Source: Nitrospira sp. (GTDB taxonomy: Bacteria; Nitrospirota; Nitrospiria; Nitrospirales; Nitrospiraceae). From it: a stretch of DNA of 57,029 nucleotides. This document shows, one piece after another, positions 3,393-9,062 of the stretch; within the stretch, counting starts at the first letter, position 1, and every line of letters starts with the position of its first letter. The stretch is from positions 1-57,029 of the forward strand of contig JAJFBJ010000013.1 in the NCBI GenBank assembly GCA_020697375.1. The letters run 5' to 3'. The translations under genes and the position numbers were made by a program. Under the pieces are notes generated by a model. It was given only the letters and a program-made list of their open reading frames with translations, did no database searches and was not told the DNA's origin.

Positions 3393-3920
3393 TTAATGAG
3401 CCGCCTTTTTCGGTCTTGATGCCTTCCCGATTTTTCGTTCCATCGCGAGCGGTGGCGCGAACCAGTTGTGGCGGGCATGTTTATGCTGGTCTGAAACGGC
3501 CAGCACGGCGTGAAAGGGCAAGCCGTTTCCCGTGACCTCATCCGATTCCTTCAAGCTCCAGGCTTCGCCGGCTTCGCTTAAAATTTCGACGAACGTTTCG
3601 AAATCATCCTCTTCGTCTGGTTTCGTCAACACTTGATCGGCATCCGTCACCACCAGGAGGTAGCCCTTGCCCGGAAGCCATTCGAGATCGGCCAAACATT
3701 CTTCGAGGGCGTCCCAGTTATGGCCGAAGTAGTCCGGAAAGGAAAAGACGCGGCTGAATTCGGCGAGCAGCCCCGCCTTGGTCTTGCATTTCTTGCCGGT
3801 GACGGTTTTGACGACAAAATGAGAGGGAACGGAAAGAATTTTATCCAGCGGTTGTCCTTCGGCATGCACGAGCAGATGAGCCCAGGGCTTTTTAATCGAT
3901 AGGAGGGCTGTAATCGACAT
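3393..3920 (-). CDS. barstar family ribonuclease inhibitor
   Basis: A 175-residue cytoplasmic protein with a barstar fold. The central block (FPDYFGHNWDALEECLADLEWLP, about residues 61-83) is the family signature, in which a helix bearing NWDALEECL plugs the active site of barnase-type RNases. About 45 N-terminal and 45 C-terminal residues extend beyond the roughly 90-residue classical barstar; the Lys-rich C-terminal tail (MERKIGKASRPKKAA) has no assigned role. A GAGGA site overlaps the stop of the upstream RNase gene (stop ends at 3927, start at 3920), which suggests translational coupling. Its inferred job is to protect the producer cell from the adjacent secreted RNase. Confidence 0.9.
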   Translation of the reverse strand: MSITALLSIKKPWAHLLVHAEGQPLDKILSVPSHFVVKTVTGKKCKTKAGLLAEFSRVFSFPDYFGHNWDALEECLADLEWLPGKGYLLVVTDADQVLTKPDEEDDFETFVEILSEAGEAWSLKESDEVTGNGLPFHAVLAVSDQHKHARHNWFAPPLAMERKIGKASRPKKAAH

Positions 3921-3926
3921 GCGTCC

Positions 3927-4385
3927 TCAATTCATGGGAACAAATGAGTGGTAGTGATCGGAGGTGTAATAGGCCTTGCCGCTGCGCTGTTCGATGACGA
4001 TCCGTTCGGCCCCGCGATTTTTCCCCCGCACTTTCGGATGCACGTCGTATTCCCGATAGCGGCCGCGTGGAAGCTTGCGCTCCCGATTCAGAAACGTGCG
4101 TCCTCCCACATATCCCGGCAGCGGGTCGCCCTGCCGCGCTTCGATGACTTGCAACGTTTCCCGTGCAACGGCGGGAATGGTTCCCTGGAGCCGGGATGAA
4201 TTCCTGCCGGGACTGCCACGCACCGCTTCGTTTCGGGGCTGCGACGCGGGATCGGAAGGAGATTCGAGTGTCGGGGCCGGAACTTCGAGGGGCGCGCCGT
4301 GGTCGCCTGCGAACGAGACGCCCAGGTGAAGCAGGAGCGTGGCGCATAACCACAGCAGGAGACGGGTGATCATCCGAACAGGCAT
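3927..4385 (-). CDS. secreted barnase/RNase Sa-type guanyl-specific ribonuclease
   Basis: An extracellular-type microbial ribonuclease (N1/T1 superfamily) of about 152 residues from the ATG at 4385. The N-terminus is a signal peptide (MITRLLLWLCATLLLHLGVSFA), followed by a Pro/Ser-rich linker. The C-terminal RNase domain shows GYVGGRTFLNRE, then YREYDV with the catalytic Glu, RGAERIVI with the catalytic Arg, and a final TSDHYHSF with the catalytic His, so all expected residues are present. A longer in-frame ORF reaches 4448 but adds a non-signal-like N-terminus. No strong RBS is visible, so the start rests on signal-peptide logic. The barstar inhibitor gene follows six bases later. Role is inferred: periplasmic or extracellular RNA hydrolysis, or a competition toxin. 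Confidence 0.9.
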   Translation of the reverse strand: MPVRMITRLLLWLCATLLLHLGVSFAGDHGAPLEVPAPTLESPSDPASQPRNEAVRGSPGRNSSRLQGTIPAVARETLQVIEARQGDPLPGYVGGRTFLNRERKLPRGRYREYDVHPKVRGKNRGAERIVIEQRSGKAYYTSDHYHSFVPMN

Positions 4386-4496
4386 GGTAATGAACGACCC
4401 ATAGCCTCGACAGGGCAAGACCCTAACATGTCGATCAGGAGGGGTCAACGCTCCATGATTGGAGCCAAAGGGTTTCTCGCATTCGTATCTGTGGCA

Positions 4497-6833
4497 TCAC
4501 GCCTCGCTTGCCATCTCCGCTCCATGCATGCGGGTGAAGAGTTCCCAGTCGAACGGCTTCGGCGCCACGGCATGGAGTGGGATCGTGTCCAGTTGGTTCG
4601 AGTCGCGGTAGGCCACCATGCAACCGACGATTGTGTCCGGTTGTTCGACCAGGCGGCGGACGGTCTCATACGCAAGATGCTGGGCGATCATTTTATCTTC
4701 CGGCGTCGGCGGAGCGCCTCGCAACGTATGGCCAAGGATCGTGGCCTTCGTGGCCGAGGCCAGCGAGTAGGGACCGGCCCTTCCATCGCGCTGCGGCCAT
4801 TTTGCGATGGTGGTGGCCACATAGTCCACCAGTCCATGGACGCCGCCTTCCCGATGATGCCGGTGCGGAGTCCGCTCCGCCACCACGAAGATATGGCTTT
4901 TGTTGGGCACTCCCAATGTGCGTTTCAAGGTACCGATGACAATCTCTTCGATGTAGGCATCGGGGTCGGGATGCTCGTTCACGAGGATCCCTTCCGCTCT
5001 AGCCTGATAGGCGCAAGCCAGGGCGAGATGGCCGGAACCGGCGCCCATGACCTCGACGAAAAAGACACTTCCCATGGCGGCGCTGGTGGCCTTGAGCGAT
5101 TCGATCGATTGATTGGCGAGCGCGACGGCTGAATGGAATCCCAGCGAGGTCGTGCCGGCGATGTTGTTGTCGATCGTGCCGGGAATGCCCACGACCTGCA
5201 CCCCGAACGTCTCATGGATGGCCCGGGCCCCGCGCAGGCTGCCGTCGCCTCCCAGCACAATTAAGGCGGAATCTTCGACATAAGGCGCAAGAGACTGCAT
5301 AGCGGCGCGCTGCACCTGTTCGTCCTTGAAATCTTCGAAGCGGCTGCTTCCGATGGGGCTGCTGGCATGGCTGCTCATGCCGCGGGTGTCTTGCTCGGTC
5401 ACGGCATCGATCCAATTGTTGGCGAGGCCGAGAAATCCGTGCCGCACGAATCGCACGTCCAGCCCGAACCGGTTGCCGGTGACGCGCAACTCTTTCAAGG
5501 CGGCTCCGCCTCCCCCGAAATCTCCGCCTGATACCAATGCAATGAGTCGCTTGATGCGTCGCGGCTTGAGCGTTACGCGCTGGCTCCGTTCCCGTTCGAC
5601 CGTGACCCAGGCCTCGCGGGCGATTCGTTCGCTCTCGATCAAGCCGACCGCAGTGGAATAGCCGGAGAGCTTGCCGTTCTCCAACGTCAACAGGACGACA
5701 TTGTCCTGTCCTTCCTTGTATTCCCCAAACTCGGAAAAGGCCTCGCGAAACGGCCGCGGATCGAGATAGATGCGTAAGGCCCGCAAGGTCGAACTATGGG
5801 TATAGAGACAGAGGACCTGGCCGGGATGGCATCGGCCCAGGCTATGCAGACCGTCGATCACGTCAATATAGAGATCGAAGAACGAATGTCCGCCGGGATA
5901 ACTGTAGAAGGGATGTTTGATGAGGCGCTTCGCCGTTTTGGCATCGACCCCGAACGCCTGCGCCGCCGCGTCGATTTCCGCCTGTTTTTCCATGCCCGTC
6001 ACCCAGCCGAAGTCTTGCGACTCCAACGTCGGCTCGACCTGAGGCTGGACTGCATCACTCGTATCGGGCATCAGCGCCTTCGTGATCCGCCTGCTGAGTT
6101 GCTCCGTGTTCGGGCTGTGGCTGATGAAGTGGAGAAACATTCGAGGGTCCAGGTAATTGTGGAGCTGCAGATAGCCCAATTGCTGGCCCACCACTCCGAT
6201 CATGCGGGCCAGCGCCGAGCCGACCGCCTCGGCTCTCGGAATGCCCCGTTCAGTATCCAGCACGTTCGCGAGCCGGCGTCCGACGCGATGAGTCTTGCTT
6301 TCGACTTCCGACACACCATGGCGCATGGTCAGGAACAGGGTGCGGTCTGCCAGGTCGCGGGGAAGCAGCCAGAAACGATCATCCCCCAAATCCAAGACGA
6401 TGCGGCCTTCGGCCAGCTGCGGAGTCAGATGAGCCCGCGGCACGATGGCGACCGGGCGCCGGTGCGCGGGTTTTTGAATGGCTCCGATCGGGGCCCGATA
6501 CAACGGCGCCAGTTCTCCGCGCGCCAGGAGCAGGTTCCAGGCGGCATAGAACACCAGCTCATTGCCGCCGCATCCCTCGGTGATCAAGGCCTGGCGCGCG
6601 GCGCGGTAGGCAGCGGCGCCGGAGAGGCCGGCCTGCAGGCTCTGAATCCAGGCTCTGATCCGGTCGATGGCCTCCTCGGCGCGTCGCCGTCGGTCGACTG
6701 TCGCCGGCGGCGGAGGCGGCAACCGGTAGTTGTCGCCGGACGATCGTCGCGTCAGCGATTCTCCATAGGCCAGCAAGCCGTCAATGGTGACAAAATCCAA
6801 CTGGTCGGTTGCCGGCGCTCCCGATGAATTCAT
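4497..6833 (-). CDS. fusion: histidine-phosphatase-like domain + ATP-type 6-phosphofructokinase
   Basis: A 778-residue fusion. Residues 1-150 have no recognised domain. Residues about 165-400 look like a histidine phosphatase (phosphoglycerate-mutase superfamily): R171-H172-G173 as the phospho-acceptor motif and a second His in THSSTLRAL near 346. Residues about 425-778 are a phosphofructokinase domain with SGGD (435-438), GGDGS (528-532) and PGTIDNN (551-557). GGDGS and the Gly before TID are features of ATP-dependent PFKs rather than PPi-dependent ones. The first Asp of TID, the catalytic base, is kept. The second Asp of TIDND is Asn, and the Arg of the MGR motif is Ala (MGAGSG, 596-601). 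It diverges from pyruvate kinase. The substrate may not be fructose-6-phosphate; the fused phosphatase could oppose or regulate the kinase. Confidence 0.85.
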   Translation of the reverse strand: MNSSGAPATDQLDFVTIDGLLAYGESLTRRSSGDNYRLPPPPPATVDRRRRAEEAIDRIRAWIQSLQAGLSGAAAYRAARQALITEGCGGNELVFYAAWNLLLARGELAPLYRAPIGAIQKPAHRRPVAIVPRAHLTPQLAEGRIVLDLGDDRFWLLPRDLADRTLFLTMRHGVSEVESKTHRVGRRLANVLDTERGIPRAEAVGSALARMIGVVGQQLGYLQLHNYLDPRMFLHFISHSPNTEQLSRRITKALMPDTSDAVQPQVEPTLESQDFGWVTGMEKQAEIDAAAQAFGVDAKTAKRLIKHPFYSYPGGHSFFDLYIDVIDGLHSLGRCHPGQVLCLYTHSSTLRALRIYLDPRPFREAFSEFGEYKEGQDNVVLLTLENGKLSGYSTAVGLIESERIAREAWVTVERERSQRVTLKPRRIKRLIALVSGGDFGGGGAALKELRVTGNRFGLDVRFVRHGFLGLANNWIDAVTEQDTRGMSSHASSPIGSSRFEDFKDEQVQRAAMQSLAPYVEDSALIVLGGDGSLRGARAIHETFGVQVVGIPGTIDNNIAGTTSLGFHSAVALANQSIESLKATSAAMGSVFFVEVMGAGSGHLALACAYQARAEGILVNEHPDPDAYIEEIVIGTLKRTLGVPNKSHIFVVAERTPHRHHREGGVHGLVDYVATTIAKWPQRDGRAGPYSLASATKATILGHTLRGAPPTPEDKMIAQHLAYETVRRLVEQPDTIVGCMVAYRDSNQLDTIPLHAVAPKPFDWELFTRMHGAEMASEA

Positions 6834-6916
6834 GACCTGCCTCGTTGAGTCCTGGTTTGTAAGTCATTTTTAATGCAACCGCCTCGAGTTTCCTGAATAT
6901 GGAAGCGGATGTTCTT

Positions 6917-6945
6917 TTGCGGCATGGGGACGCGTTTGTTAGAAT
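6917..6945 (+). promoter_or_regulatory. candidate sigma70 promoter for pyruvate kinase
   Basis: TTGCGG (6917-6922) and TAGAAT (6940-6945) are separated by exactly 17 bases, a good match to a housekeeping -35/-10 pair. It lies in the divergent gap between the PFK fusion and pyk, about 100 bp upstream of the pyk start. No transcription data are available here. Confidence 0.45.
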
Positions 6946-7042
6946 GATCCGATTATCGACCGGATGAAGATGCGCCGAGTCTTACTCCTCAAGCACAAGA
7001 TGGTGTGCCGGGCCCATCTTGTCAAGACAGAAGAACAGGGCC

Positions 7043-8494
7043 ATGCGAAAAGCTAAAATCGTCTGCACCATCGGTCCGGCAAGTGATGGCCCGACCGTCC
7101 TCGAGCAACTCATTCAATGCGGCATGAATGCCGCCCGTTTGAATTTTTCCCATGGCACGCACGAATCACACGGCCGCGCCATCAAGGCCATCCGCGACCA
7201 GGCAGACCGTCAGGGTGTGGCGGTCGCCATCATTCAAGACCTCCAAGGTCCGCGCATCCGGCTCGGTGAAATCCCGGGAGGCATGGAATTGGTCGCCGGT
7301 CAAACCGTGCGGTTGAAGACGATGGCCTTGCGCTCCGGAGGGCAAATCGGCGCCAGGGAAGTCATAGACCGTCCCGCGGTGGCGGAGATTCCTGTCACCT
7401 ACCATGCATTGACCAGAGACATCCTGCCCGGGGCCAGAATTCTCATCGACGACGGCCTGGTGGAGTTGAGGGCGGATCGGATTGTCGATGGCGCGGTAGA
7501 ATGCACGGTCACGGCGGGAGGACGCATCATCTCTCACAAGGGCATGAATCTACCGGGCACGGCTGTGAGCGCGCCCACCTTGACGGACAAAGATCGGGAG
7601 GACTTGCGGTTCGGCGTGGCGGAGGGGGTGGACTATATCGCCCTCTCGTTTGTCCGTGGAGCGGAGGACATCATTGCCGCCAGGCAGTTGATTGCCGATT
7701 GCGGCGGGAATGTGCCGATTATCGCTAAAATCGAACGGCAGGAGGCGGTAAATTCATTGGAGGCCATCCTCGCCCAGGCGGACGGGGTCATGATCGCGCG
7801 CGGCGACCTGGGAGTGGAATTGGGGCCGGAAGCCGTGCCGGTGCTGCAGAAGCGCATTATCGCCGGCGCGAATCGCCAACGGCGGCTGGTGATCACGGCC
7901 ACGCAAATGCTGGAGTCTATGACGCAACACATGCGGCCGACCAGGGCTGAGGCGTCGGATGTGGCCAATGCCGTGTTCGACGGCACGGACGCCGTCATGC
8001 TGTCCGCTGAAACCGCCATCGGACAGCACCCGGTCGAAGTCGTGCGGGTGATGGATCGTATCGTACGGGCGGCGGAAGTCGAAACGGGCCCGGGATTTAT
8101 CAGGCGGGTTCAGATGGATAGCGGCCATGTCTCATTTCCCGAAGCGATCTGCCTTTCGGCGTCATCGGCCGCCGCGGCAATCGGCGCCAGCGCCATCGTT
8201 GCCTTCAGTGAACGGGGCATGACGGCCAGACTAGTCTCCAAACAACGTCCTGCTGCGCCGATTATCGCCTTTACTCCCTTCGCACAGGTCCGCCGGCAGA
8301 TGGCTTTGTATCACGGGGTGCTTCCCCACACGATGGCGCAGATTCCGACGACCGATGAACGGGTGAGCGAAGCAGAGCGCCGGTTGAAGGCCGAAGGACT
8401 GGCGAAGACCGGGGAACGCATCGTCATCCTCTCCGGGACGAGAATCGGCGCGCCTGGCGGAACGAACCTCATGAAGTTGCATGAGGTAGGATAA
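7043..8494 (+). CDS. pyk: pyruvate kinase
   Basis: Catalyses phosphoenolpyruvate + ADP to pyruvate + ATP, the last step of glycolysis. The ATG at 7043 gives the canonical N-terminus MRKAKIVCTIGPAS; an in-frame TTG at 7019 would add eight unneeded residues. Family motifs in order: NFSHG, DLQGPRIRLG, the KIERQEAV block with the catalytic Lys and metal-binding Glu, MIARGDLGVELG and TATQMLESM. The C-terminal regulatory-type domain is present, giving 483 residues, normal for the family. It is divergently arranged with the phosphofructokinase fusion, so two glycolytic control-point enzymes share one promoter region. The next gene starts four bases after its stop, suggesting co-transcription with the exported protein and HAD phosphatase. 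Confidence 0.97.
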   Translation: MRKAKIVCTIGPASDGPTVLEQLIQCGMNAARLNFSHGTHESHGRAIKAIRDQADRQGVAVAIIQDLQGPRIRLGEIPGGMELVAGQTVRLKTMALRSGGQIGAREVIDRPAVAEIPVTYHALTRDILPGARILIDDGLVELRADRIVDGAVECTVTAGGRIISHKGMNLPGTAVSAPTLTDKDREDLRFGVAEGVDYIALSFVRGAEDIIAARQLIADCGGNVPIIAKIERQEAVNSLEAILAQADGVMIARGDLGVELGPEAVPVLQKRIIAGANRQRRLVITATQMLESMTQHMRPTRAEASDVANAVFDGTDAVMLSAETAIGQHPVEVVRVMDRIVRAAEVETGPGFIRRVQMDSGHVSFPEAICLSASSAAAAIGASAIVAFSERGMTARLVSKQRPAAPIIAFTPFAQVRRQMALYHGVLPHTMAQIPTTDERVSEAERRLKAEGLAKTGERIVILSGTRIGAPGGTNLMKLHEVG

Positions 8495-8498
8495 CCGT

Positions 8499-9062
8499 AT
8501 GGAGGGAGGATCGCGCCGTTTCATGCCGGGGCTGGCGATCGGAGTCGCCTGGCTCGCGGCTTCGGCCATGACCGGATCGGCGCAAACCAATGCCGTATCG
8601 CATTCTCCCGCCCAGGTCGTGGAGAAATACTTCGCTCTCGACAACAAGGGCGTGCGGCTTGATGCGGATTCCTTCGAATCGGTGGCGGGGTATGTGGAGT
8701 GGAAGGAAGAGCCGGCCTGGGGCAAAGTGATCGTCATCAACGGGTTTACCGTGCCGGACGATTTCCGCCAGTGGGAGATCGTGAATACTCTGGAAGTCCT
8801 GGTTCCGGTGAAATTTCGCGTGTTGGGCGTCATGTATCTGGACACCGCCGGTTTTGTGCCGGAGCCAGGCACGGAAGAAGTGCGCGTCCGCGTGAAGGTG
8901 CAGGGAGCCAGGTGGAAAATCATGGAGCCCATCCTTCCGCCGCACGTCGGTCAGAAGCGGATGGTGAGCTTCGTTCGGCAAGCTCTGCTGGACGAGAAGG
9001 ATGGGACGCGGCAGGCGGCATTGGCGGCCTTGCAGGTCGAATTGCGAAAGGCAAAAGAATGA
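8499..9062 (+). CDS. exported hypothetical protein
   Basis: A 187-residue protein with an N-terminal signal peptide (LAIGVAWLAASAMTGSAQ, probable cleavage after SAQ), so it is likely periplasmic. The mature part has no Cys, no obvious metal site and no family I can name. It has alternating beta-like stretches (EVLVPVKFRVLGVMYLD, VRVRVKVQGARWKIMEP), which resemble an NTF2- or DUF4440-like alpha+beta fold, but this is only an impression. It starts four bases after pyk ends, and its stop overlaps the next ATG (ATGA), so it is in a tight operon with the HAD phosphatase. Confidence 0.8.
   Translation: MEGGSRRFMPGLAIGVAWLAASAMTGSAQTNAVSHSPAQVVEKYFALDNKGVRLDADSFESVAGYVEWKEEPAWGKVIVINGFTVPDDFRQWEIVNTLEVLVPVKFRVLGVMYLDTAGFVPEPGTEEVRVRVKVQGARWKIMEPILPPHVGQKRMVSFVRQALLDEKDGTRQAALAALQVELRKAKE

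Follow-up and report, generated by a model that had tools for sequence, protein, structure and literature searches.

The window, a 57,029-nucleotide stretch of a Nitrospira sp. genome, carries a gene (positions 4497 to 6833, minus strand) whose single 778-aa product joins a histidine phosphatase (HP) fold to a phosphofructokinase (PFK) fold, each with a remodelled active site. Both folds are already known, and what is new is their combination together with the two remodelled sites. As judged from its residues, the PFK half has retained its chemistry, with a substrate clamp and an effector site that are altered in a fixed manner. The direct observations are the predicted folds, the substituted residues and how far these are conserved, and the distribution and neighbourhood of the gene. 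From them we favour, at slightly less than even confidence, an ATP-dependent sugar-phosphate kinase with altered specificity or regulation, which would be tied to pyruvate kinase and controlled by an HP module that binds phosphate without hydrolysing it.

The first-pass annotation had proposed an HP fold fused to a PFK-1-type fold in one chain, and the open reading frame, the Pfam matches and the structure model (mean pLDDT 86.9) all bear this out. The chain runs from a helical N-terminus through the HP fold to the PFK fold. When each domain is searched separately with profiles and fold comparison, the N-terminal part is recognised as an HP (Pfam ID PF00300) and the C-terminal part as a PFK (Pfam ID PF00365). 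The helical N-terminal region with its lead-in strands, delimited from the secondary structure of the model (residues 10 to 156; 6366 to 6806, minus strand), had no family match in the Pfam search of the fusion protein and is its least conserved part, with dN/dS values of 0.12 to 0.27 in five pairs with near relatives. The corresponding values are 0.034 to 0.054 for the HP half (residues 157 to 402; 5628 to 6365, minus strand) and 0.049 to 0.066 for the PFK half (residues 425 to 775; 4509 to 5561, minus strand), indicating purifying selection on both. Since the dN/dS of the HP half is as low as that of the PFK half, despite the active-site substitution S272 described below, the selection pattern indicates that the HP half has a function.

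The C-terminal half has the PFK fold and the Pfam PFK domain, and it keeps the ATP-type loop. The residue counts given here are based on 219 distinct family sequences, the window's protein included, which are the best-scoring part of the finds and mutually related; PFK residues of the type Arg162 follow the E. coli numbering. The GGDGS motif (residues 528 to 532; 5238 to 5252, minus strand) preserves the Mg-associated Asp103 and Gly104 of ATP-type PFKs, and the PGTIDNN motif (residues 551 to 557; 5163 to 5183, minus strand) preserves Asp127 as D555, the general base of PFK according to the accessible part of PMC12203962. In the family alignment G437, R498, G531, D555, E653, H702, and R705 are invariant and D530 is found in 218 of the 219 sequences; in E. 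coli terms, Gly11, Asp12, Arg72, Gly104, Asp127, Glu222, His249, and Arg252 are kept throughout and Asp103 in 218. For Glu222 the pairing depends on the program, HMMER choosing P656 and MAFFT choosing E653, and the MAFFT pairing is used.

The substrate pocket is changed at four places. Asp129 is replaced by N557 (Asn in 218/219), Arg162 by S589 (5067 to 5069, minus strand; Ser in 209 and Thr in 10), Arg171 of the MGR motif by A598 (5040 to 5042, minus strand; Ala in 219/219), and Arg243 by K696 (4746 to 4748, minus strand; Lys in 219/219), so that each of these replacements (Asn, Ser or Thr, Ala, and Lys) is held by 218 to 219 of the 219 sequences. The altered PFK active site that had been noted at first, with Asp127 kept, Asp129 changed to Asn and the MGR arginine changed to Ala, is thus a family-wide feature. 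In the MAFFT alignment, all four residues are retained by 12 of 12 ordinary PFKs, which were chosen from the 18 listed in the search with the PFK half. We take Arg171, Arg243, and Asp129 to be residues of the fructose 6-phosphate (F6P) site, and Arg21, Arg25, and Arg154 to belong to the effector site. At the latter, Arg21 and Arg154 have become Lys in every family sequence and Arg25 is mostly Val (208 sequences). Arg162 is described, in the text available of PMC12203962, as reaching in from the adjacent subunit to bind the F6P phosphate.

The fusion therefore differs from PfkA (NF002872/PRK03202, TIGR02482) at Arg162, Arg171, Arg243, Asp129, Arg21, Arg25, and Arg154, in carrying an HP domain in front, and in scoring under the family cut-offs, with 188.8 bits against 253 for NF002872/PRK03202 and 176.7 against 371.35 for TIGR02482. 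The pyrophosphate-dependent PFK (PPi-PFK) of Nitrospira (NF041103) shares the fold and often the genome with the fusion, but it has GGDDT, PKTIDND, and an intact MGR motif in a chain of about 420 aa without an HP domain; the fusion has GGDG instead of GGDD and reaches 69.7 bits against a cut-off of 550. Given these cut-offs and the residues, we rejected filing the protein as an ordinary PfkA or as a PPi-PFK.

We consider it improbable that the protein is an ordinary ATP-PFK to which a regulatory domain has been added, with pocket changes that would tune affinity or cooperativity, and that it serves as the main PFK where there is no other. This view would explain the retained ATP-type GGDGS loop and general base, and the occurrence of pfk next to pyk is a common glycolytic arrangement. 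It does not sit well with four substrate-site residues that are conserved in all the ordinary PFKs aligned and are all changed and fixed here, nor with scores under the cut-offs of each of the 11 listed NCBIfam models of PFK type. The gene content of the genomes that bear the fusion speaks in both directions. A further PFK-family gene is present in 9 of the 10 bearer genomes examined, being of the GGDDT type in N. defluvii, N. moscoviensis, LK70, and UBC2, and the N. moscoviensis copy passes the PPi-PFK equivalog. Among the 80 best-scoring of 116 bearers, PPi-PFK (NF041103) is found in 53 at an E value of 1e-100 or below (52 above the family cut-off) and an ordinary ATP-PFK (NF002872) in 5 further genomes, so that 58 of the 80 have another PFK and, by these gene counts, the fusion is usually not the sole one. 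In the remaining 22, neither NF041103 nor NF002872 proteins were detected at the thresholds used, although the query matched twice in two of these genomes (G044 and G048). For the 22 bearers in which neither other family was detected, the fusion may act as the PFK of the lineage and be ordinary in function.

The N-terminal half has the fold and the family profile of HP superfamily branch 1. The RHG motif (R171, H172, and G173; 6315 to 6323, minus strand) is kept, with R and H in 218/219 and G in 219/219 sequences, as is the second catalytic histidine H346 (5796 to 5798, minus strand; 219/219). The position of the glutamate that we take to be the general acid of catalytically active HP members is occupied by S272 (6018 to 6020, minus strand), which is Ser in 215 of 219 sequences; HHalign and MAFFT agree on this pairing, and the 12 ordinary HPs aligned with MAFFT and read by eye all have Glu there. 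Its neighbours are acidic, residue 271 being E or D in 216/219 and D274 being invariant (219/219), and in principle E271 or D274 could stand in for the missing acid.

The place of the second catalytic arginine depends on the register. HHalign and MAFFT point to H239, and the strand (residues 234 to 237) and helix (residues 241 to 254) of the model point to E244 (6102 to 6104, minus strand), which we prefer on the basis of the predicted structure; N242, an initial candidate, was dropped. The family has Arg at 244 in 118 and at 239 in 103 of the 219 sequences, at one of the two in 162, and at neither in 57, the window's protein among these. In comparison with branch 1 enzymes such as PhoE/YhfR, dPGM, and the Hydrogenobacter phosphoserine phosphatase, the fusion therefore has Ser for Glu, an insert of about 16 residues before the second-Arg helix, and a second Arg that is not conserved in the family and is absent from the window's protein. 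Two arginines and two histidines are given as the signature needed for HP catalysis in the accessible part of the PGAM5 work (PMC5501728), and the portion available of the SixA paper (PMC6282199) holds nothing on a missing HP general acid. An active site that is conserved and under selection yet incomplete is suggestive, though no proof, of a ligand-binding role in place of ordinary hydrolysis. The HP half of the family at large could have phosphatase activity, given the Arg at one of the two places in 162 sequences and the candidate acids E271 and D274.

The initial reading had compared the protein to the bifunctional PFK-2/FBPase-2 (PFKFB), with opposing kinase and phosphatase chemistries in one chain giving tight flux control. 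The likeness holds for the combination of a sugar-phosphate kinase with an HP domain on one chain and for the HP fold, which matches the structures 5ajy and 2axn, and fails for the kinase half. The PFKFB kinase has a P-loop fold and comes first in the chain, whereas the fusion has no P-loop 6-phosphofructo-2-kinase domain; its kinase half is a PFK-1 fold placed at the end of the chain, behind an HP domain with an incomplete active site. Paired opposing chemistries are unlikely because the general acid and, in the window's protein, the second catalytic Arg are missing. The bearers also hold their own class I FBPase, found in 10 of the 10 genomes examined, and often the PPi-PFK. We therefore regard as quite improbable a true PFK-1-type analogue of PFK-2/FBPase-2, in which the PFK half would make fructose 1,6-bisphosphate and the HP half would dephosphorylate a sugar phosphate, even though both catalytic histidines and the RHG arginine are almost invariant, the HP fold matches include TIGAR as well as PFKFB, and the mycobacterial GPM2, a free-standing HP, is a real FBPase according to the available text of PMC4535450.

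The fusion gene diverges from a pyruvate kinase gene, pyk (7043 to 8494, plus strand; TIGR01064, 524 bits with a cut-off of 306), as had been noticed before, and the linkage extends far past the window. The loci compared are the 80 best-scoring ones and are related, so the counts are not independent. A pyk lies near the fusion in 53 of the 80, within 1 kb in 52 of them and at 2.4 kb in the other one (L045); of the 55 loci with at least 2 kb of flank on each side, 41 have pyk within 1 kb and 13 have none in view. By the tblastn ends, which we use here, divergent arrangements number 32 among the 53 pyk-bearing loci and tandem ones 16; a further 4 loci are convergent, and 1 has the two genes 2.4 kb apart on the same strand. 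Cruder stop-to-stop frames gave 23 upstream-minus, 16 downstream-plus, 12 downstream-minus, and 1 upstream-plus. Two types of pyk are involved, 43 genes having at least 60% identity to the window's pyk and 10 having 37 to 38%; the one of these ten that was checked scored above the cut-off for pyruvate kinase. Neither inversions nor the switch between pyk types have parted the fusion from pyk, which suggests that the two are functionally linked.

The intergenic region shared with the divergent pyk (6834 to 7042) contains long conserved blocks in an alignment of 12 sequences including the window, being conserved among near relatives. Right before pyk, at 6995 to 7022, it holds a perfect 9-bp inverted repeat (ACAAGATGG/CCATCTTGT), a candidate operator or leader hairpin. 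The promoter scan of this region found no sigma-70 site and one terminator-like site at 6888 to 6906 (0.2 expected), and the sole Rfam match was far under the gathering score.

Other genes surround the pair. Directly downstream of the fusion, 3393 to 4448 on the minus strand, a barstar-like gene (Pfam ID PF01337, E value 5.7e-27) adjoins a ribonuclease gene (Pfam ID PF00545, E value 1.2e-14) with a hydrophobic N-terminal stretch, the two resembling a barnase/barstar pair; the barstar gene is present at 27 of the 80 related loci. The gene after pyk (8499 to 9062) has no Pfam match at an E value of 0.001 or below; many of the 80 loci have it again, flanked by pyk and a gene for a HAD phosphatase.

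When each species was represented by one genome, the scan yielded 111 relatives of the fusion, and the 80 best were retained; these bear the names of Nitrospira or other Nitrospirota, with the exception of L008 (Nitrosospira), L045 (Nitrospinota), and L054 (Ca. Manganitrophaceae), the last two having genomes that fell inside the N. defluvii phylum set. In that phylum, 116 of 378 genomes have matches above 900 bits, a count that includes copies split over contigs (G057 and G095), partial (G141 and G189), or broken (G176), and matches elsewhere are weaker or absent. The search with the N-terminal half in 5.8 billion proteins returned 127 relatives, 120 of them listed, whose Pfam content is PFK, His_Phos_1, or none, and nothing else; among these 120 no stand-alone relative outside the family was recognised. 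In the search with the PFK half, the identity of complete matches jumps from about 63% or higher straight to 37% or lower. The distribution, this Pfam content, and the identity gap indicate a single family that, to the extent covered here, is restricted to Nitrospirota. The open literature searched, with subscription journals mostly outside it, gave us no earlier description of this fusion, and no activity data or assay for it.

Some copies are irregular. Several genome rows of the 378-genome scan have a stop codon inside the match, and the broken copy L100 (in G176) has five, its longest stop-free part aligning from residue 197. At least six pairs of database proteins, one with the N-terminal and one with the PFK half, have an equal longest contig (P0128/P0265, P0166/P0318, P0174/P0288, P0146/P0311, P0185/P0307, and P0189/P0324) and would be split genes or frame errors. 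N-half-only proteins also occur among the matches listed, and some of these have long contigs, as P0281 does (349 aa; longest contig 162,394 bases), so that split or shorter forms may exist. Protein P0173 joins a PPK2 N-terminus to the PFK half of the family and is possibly a chimeric assembly, and at L117 (in G007) an extra piece about 4.6 kb from the full gene, covering residues 699 to 776 at 60% identity, is perhaps a partial duplicate. The broken copy and the six pairs are what an assembly join or a decaying gene would predict, an explanation to which we give a negligible probability: the fusion recurs above 900 bits in the 116 genomes, the complete chromosomes of N. moscoviensis and N. 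defluvii among them, and both halves are under purifying selection. For the family as a whole, an assembly join or decay is refuted.

The pocket changes could equally be the mark of a pseudokinase. The main rival to the reading that we favour is a double pseudoenzyme, which would sense ATP or ADP and sugar phosphates and regulate pyruvate kinase or PPi-PFK by contact; we consider it unlikely, and the ordinary PFK with an extra domain and the true bifunctional enzyme less likely. The lost general acid of the HP half, the altered sugar-phosphate clamp of the PFK half, the linkage to pyk, and the retention of the fusion irrespective of whether PPi-PFK, ATP-PFK, or neither of them was detected in the genome are all in line with it. 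Against it stand Asp127, Asp103, and the GGDG loop, which are essentially invariant, and the comparison with eukaryotic double-domain PFKs. These resemble the fusion in having a remodelled PFK-fold site inside a larger chain, with the Arg171 place lost in both. In the alignment, however, the silent C-terminal half of human liver PFK has GGFEA for GGDGS, TIS for TID, and Gly at the Arg171 place, having lost Asp103 and Asp127 while carrying Arg at the Arg162 place, whereas the fusion keeps both aspartates and has lost Arg162. By this alignment, the pattern of the fusion is partly the opposite of that of the human C-terminal half.

In the favoured reading, a kinase governed by its HP module, the catalysis, the ligands, the sensing role, and any target are what we infer. 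The PFK half would still transfer phosphate from ATP, since it retains the general base and the residues that serve nucleotide and Mg. The acceptor would be a sugar phosphate bound in the rebuilt pocket, in which three arginines and one aspartate are replaced, and because of these replacements the acceptor, the affinity, or the allostery would be unlike those of a textbook PFK. The HP half would bind a phosphorylated ligand through R171, H172, and H346, without turnover by the usual mechanism, and act as a built-in sensor that sets the kinase half. Coupling to pyruvate kinase would then give control of the PEP/pyruvate and hexose-phosphate nodes. A more specific proposal, which we offer as speculative and somewhat unlikely, is a new enzyme subfamily in Nitrospira and its kin, a PFK-fold kinase without textbook F6P use that would be switched by a disarmed HP domain reading a phosphorylated metabolite (or holding a long-lived phosphohistidine on H172) and that would set, with the neighbouring pyruvate kinase, the direction of carbon flow between PEP/pyruvate and hexose phosphates.

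The abstract of PMC8115632 calls Nitrospira the most widespread nitrite oxidisers, and the published accounts of their glycolysis differ. In the portions accessible, glycolysis is described as complete in N. marina, as in all sequenced Nitrospira (PMC8115632), and in N. lenta, and Great Lakes Nitrospira are reported to have no PFK (PMC9239080); this disagreement is telling, and the available parts of these accounts do not mention the fusion protein. The conserved fusion is currently named "6-phosphofructokinase" by similarity. Its substrate may be a different one, or the protein may act as a switch, so that flux models of Nitrospira could be wrong at the PFK step. The 22 bearers in which neither other PFK was found would be the best test ground for the fusion serving as the PFK. 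The family is also a natural example of a PFK fold with its catalytic machinery retained and its substrate clamp exchanged, to some extent the mirror image of the eukaryotic C-terminal half.
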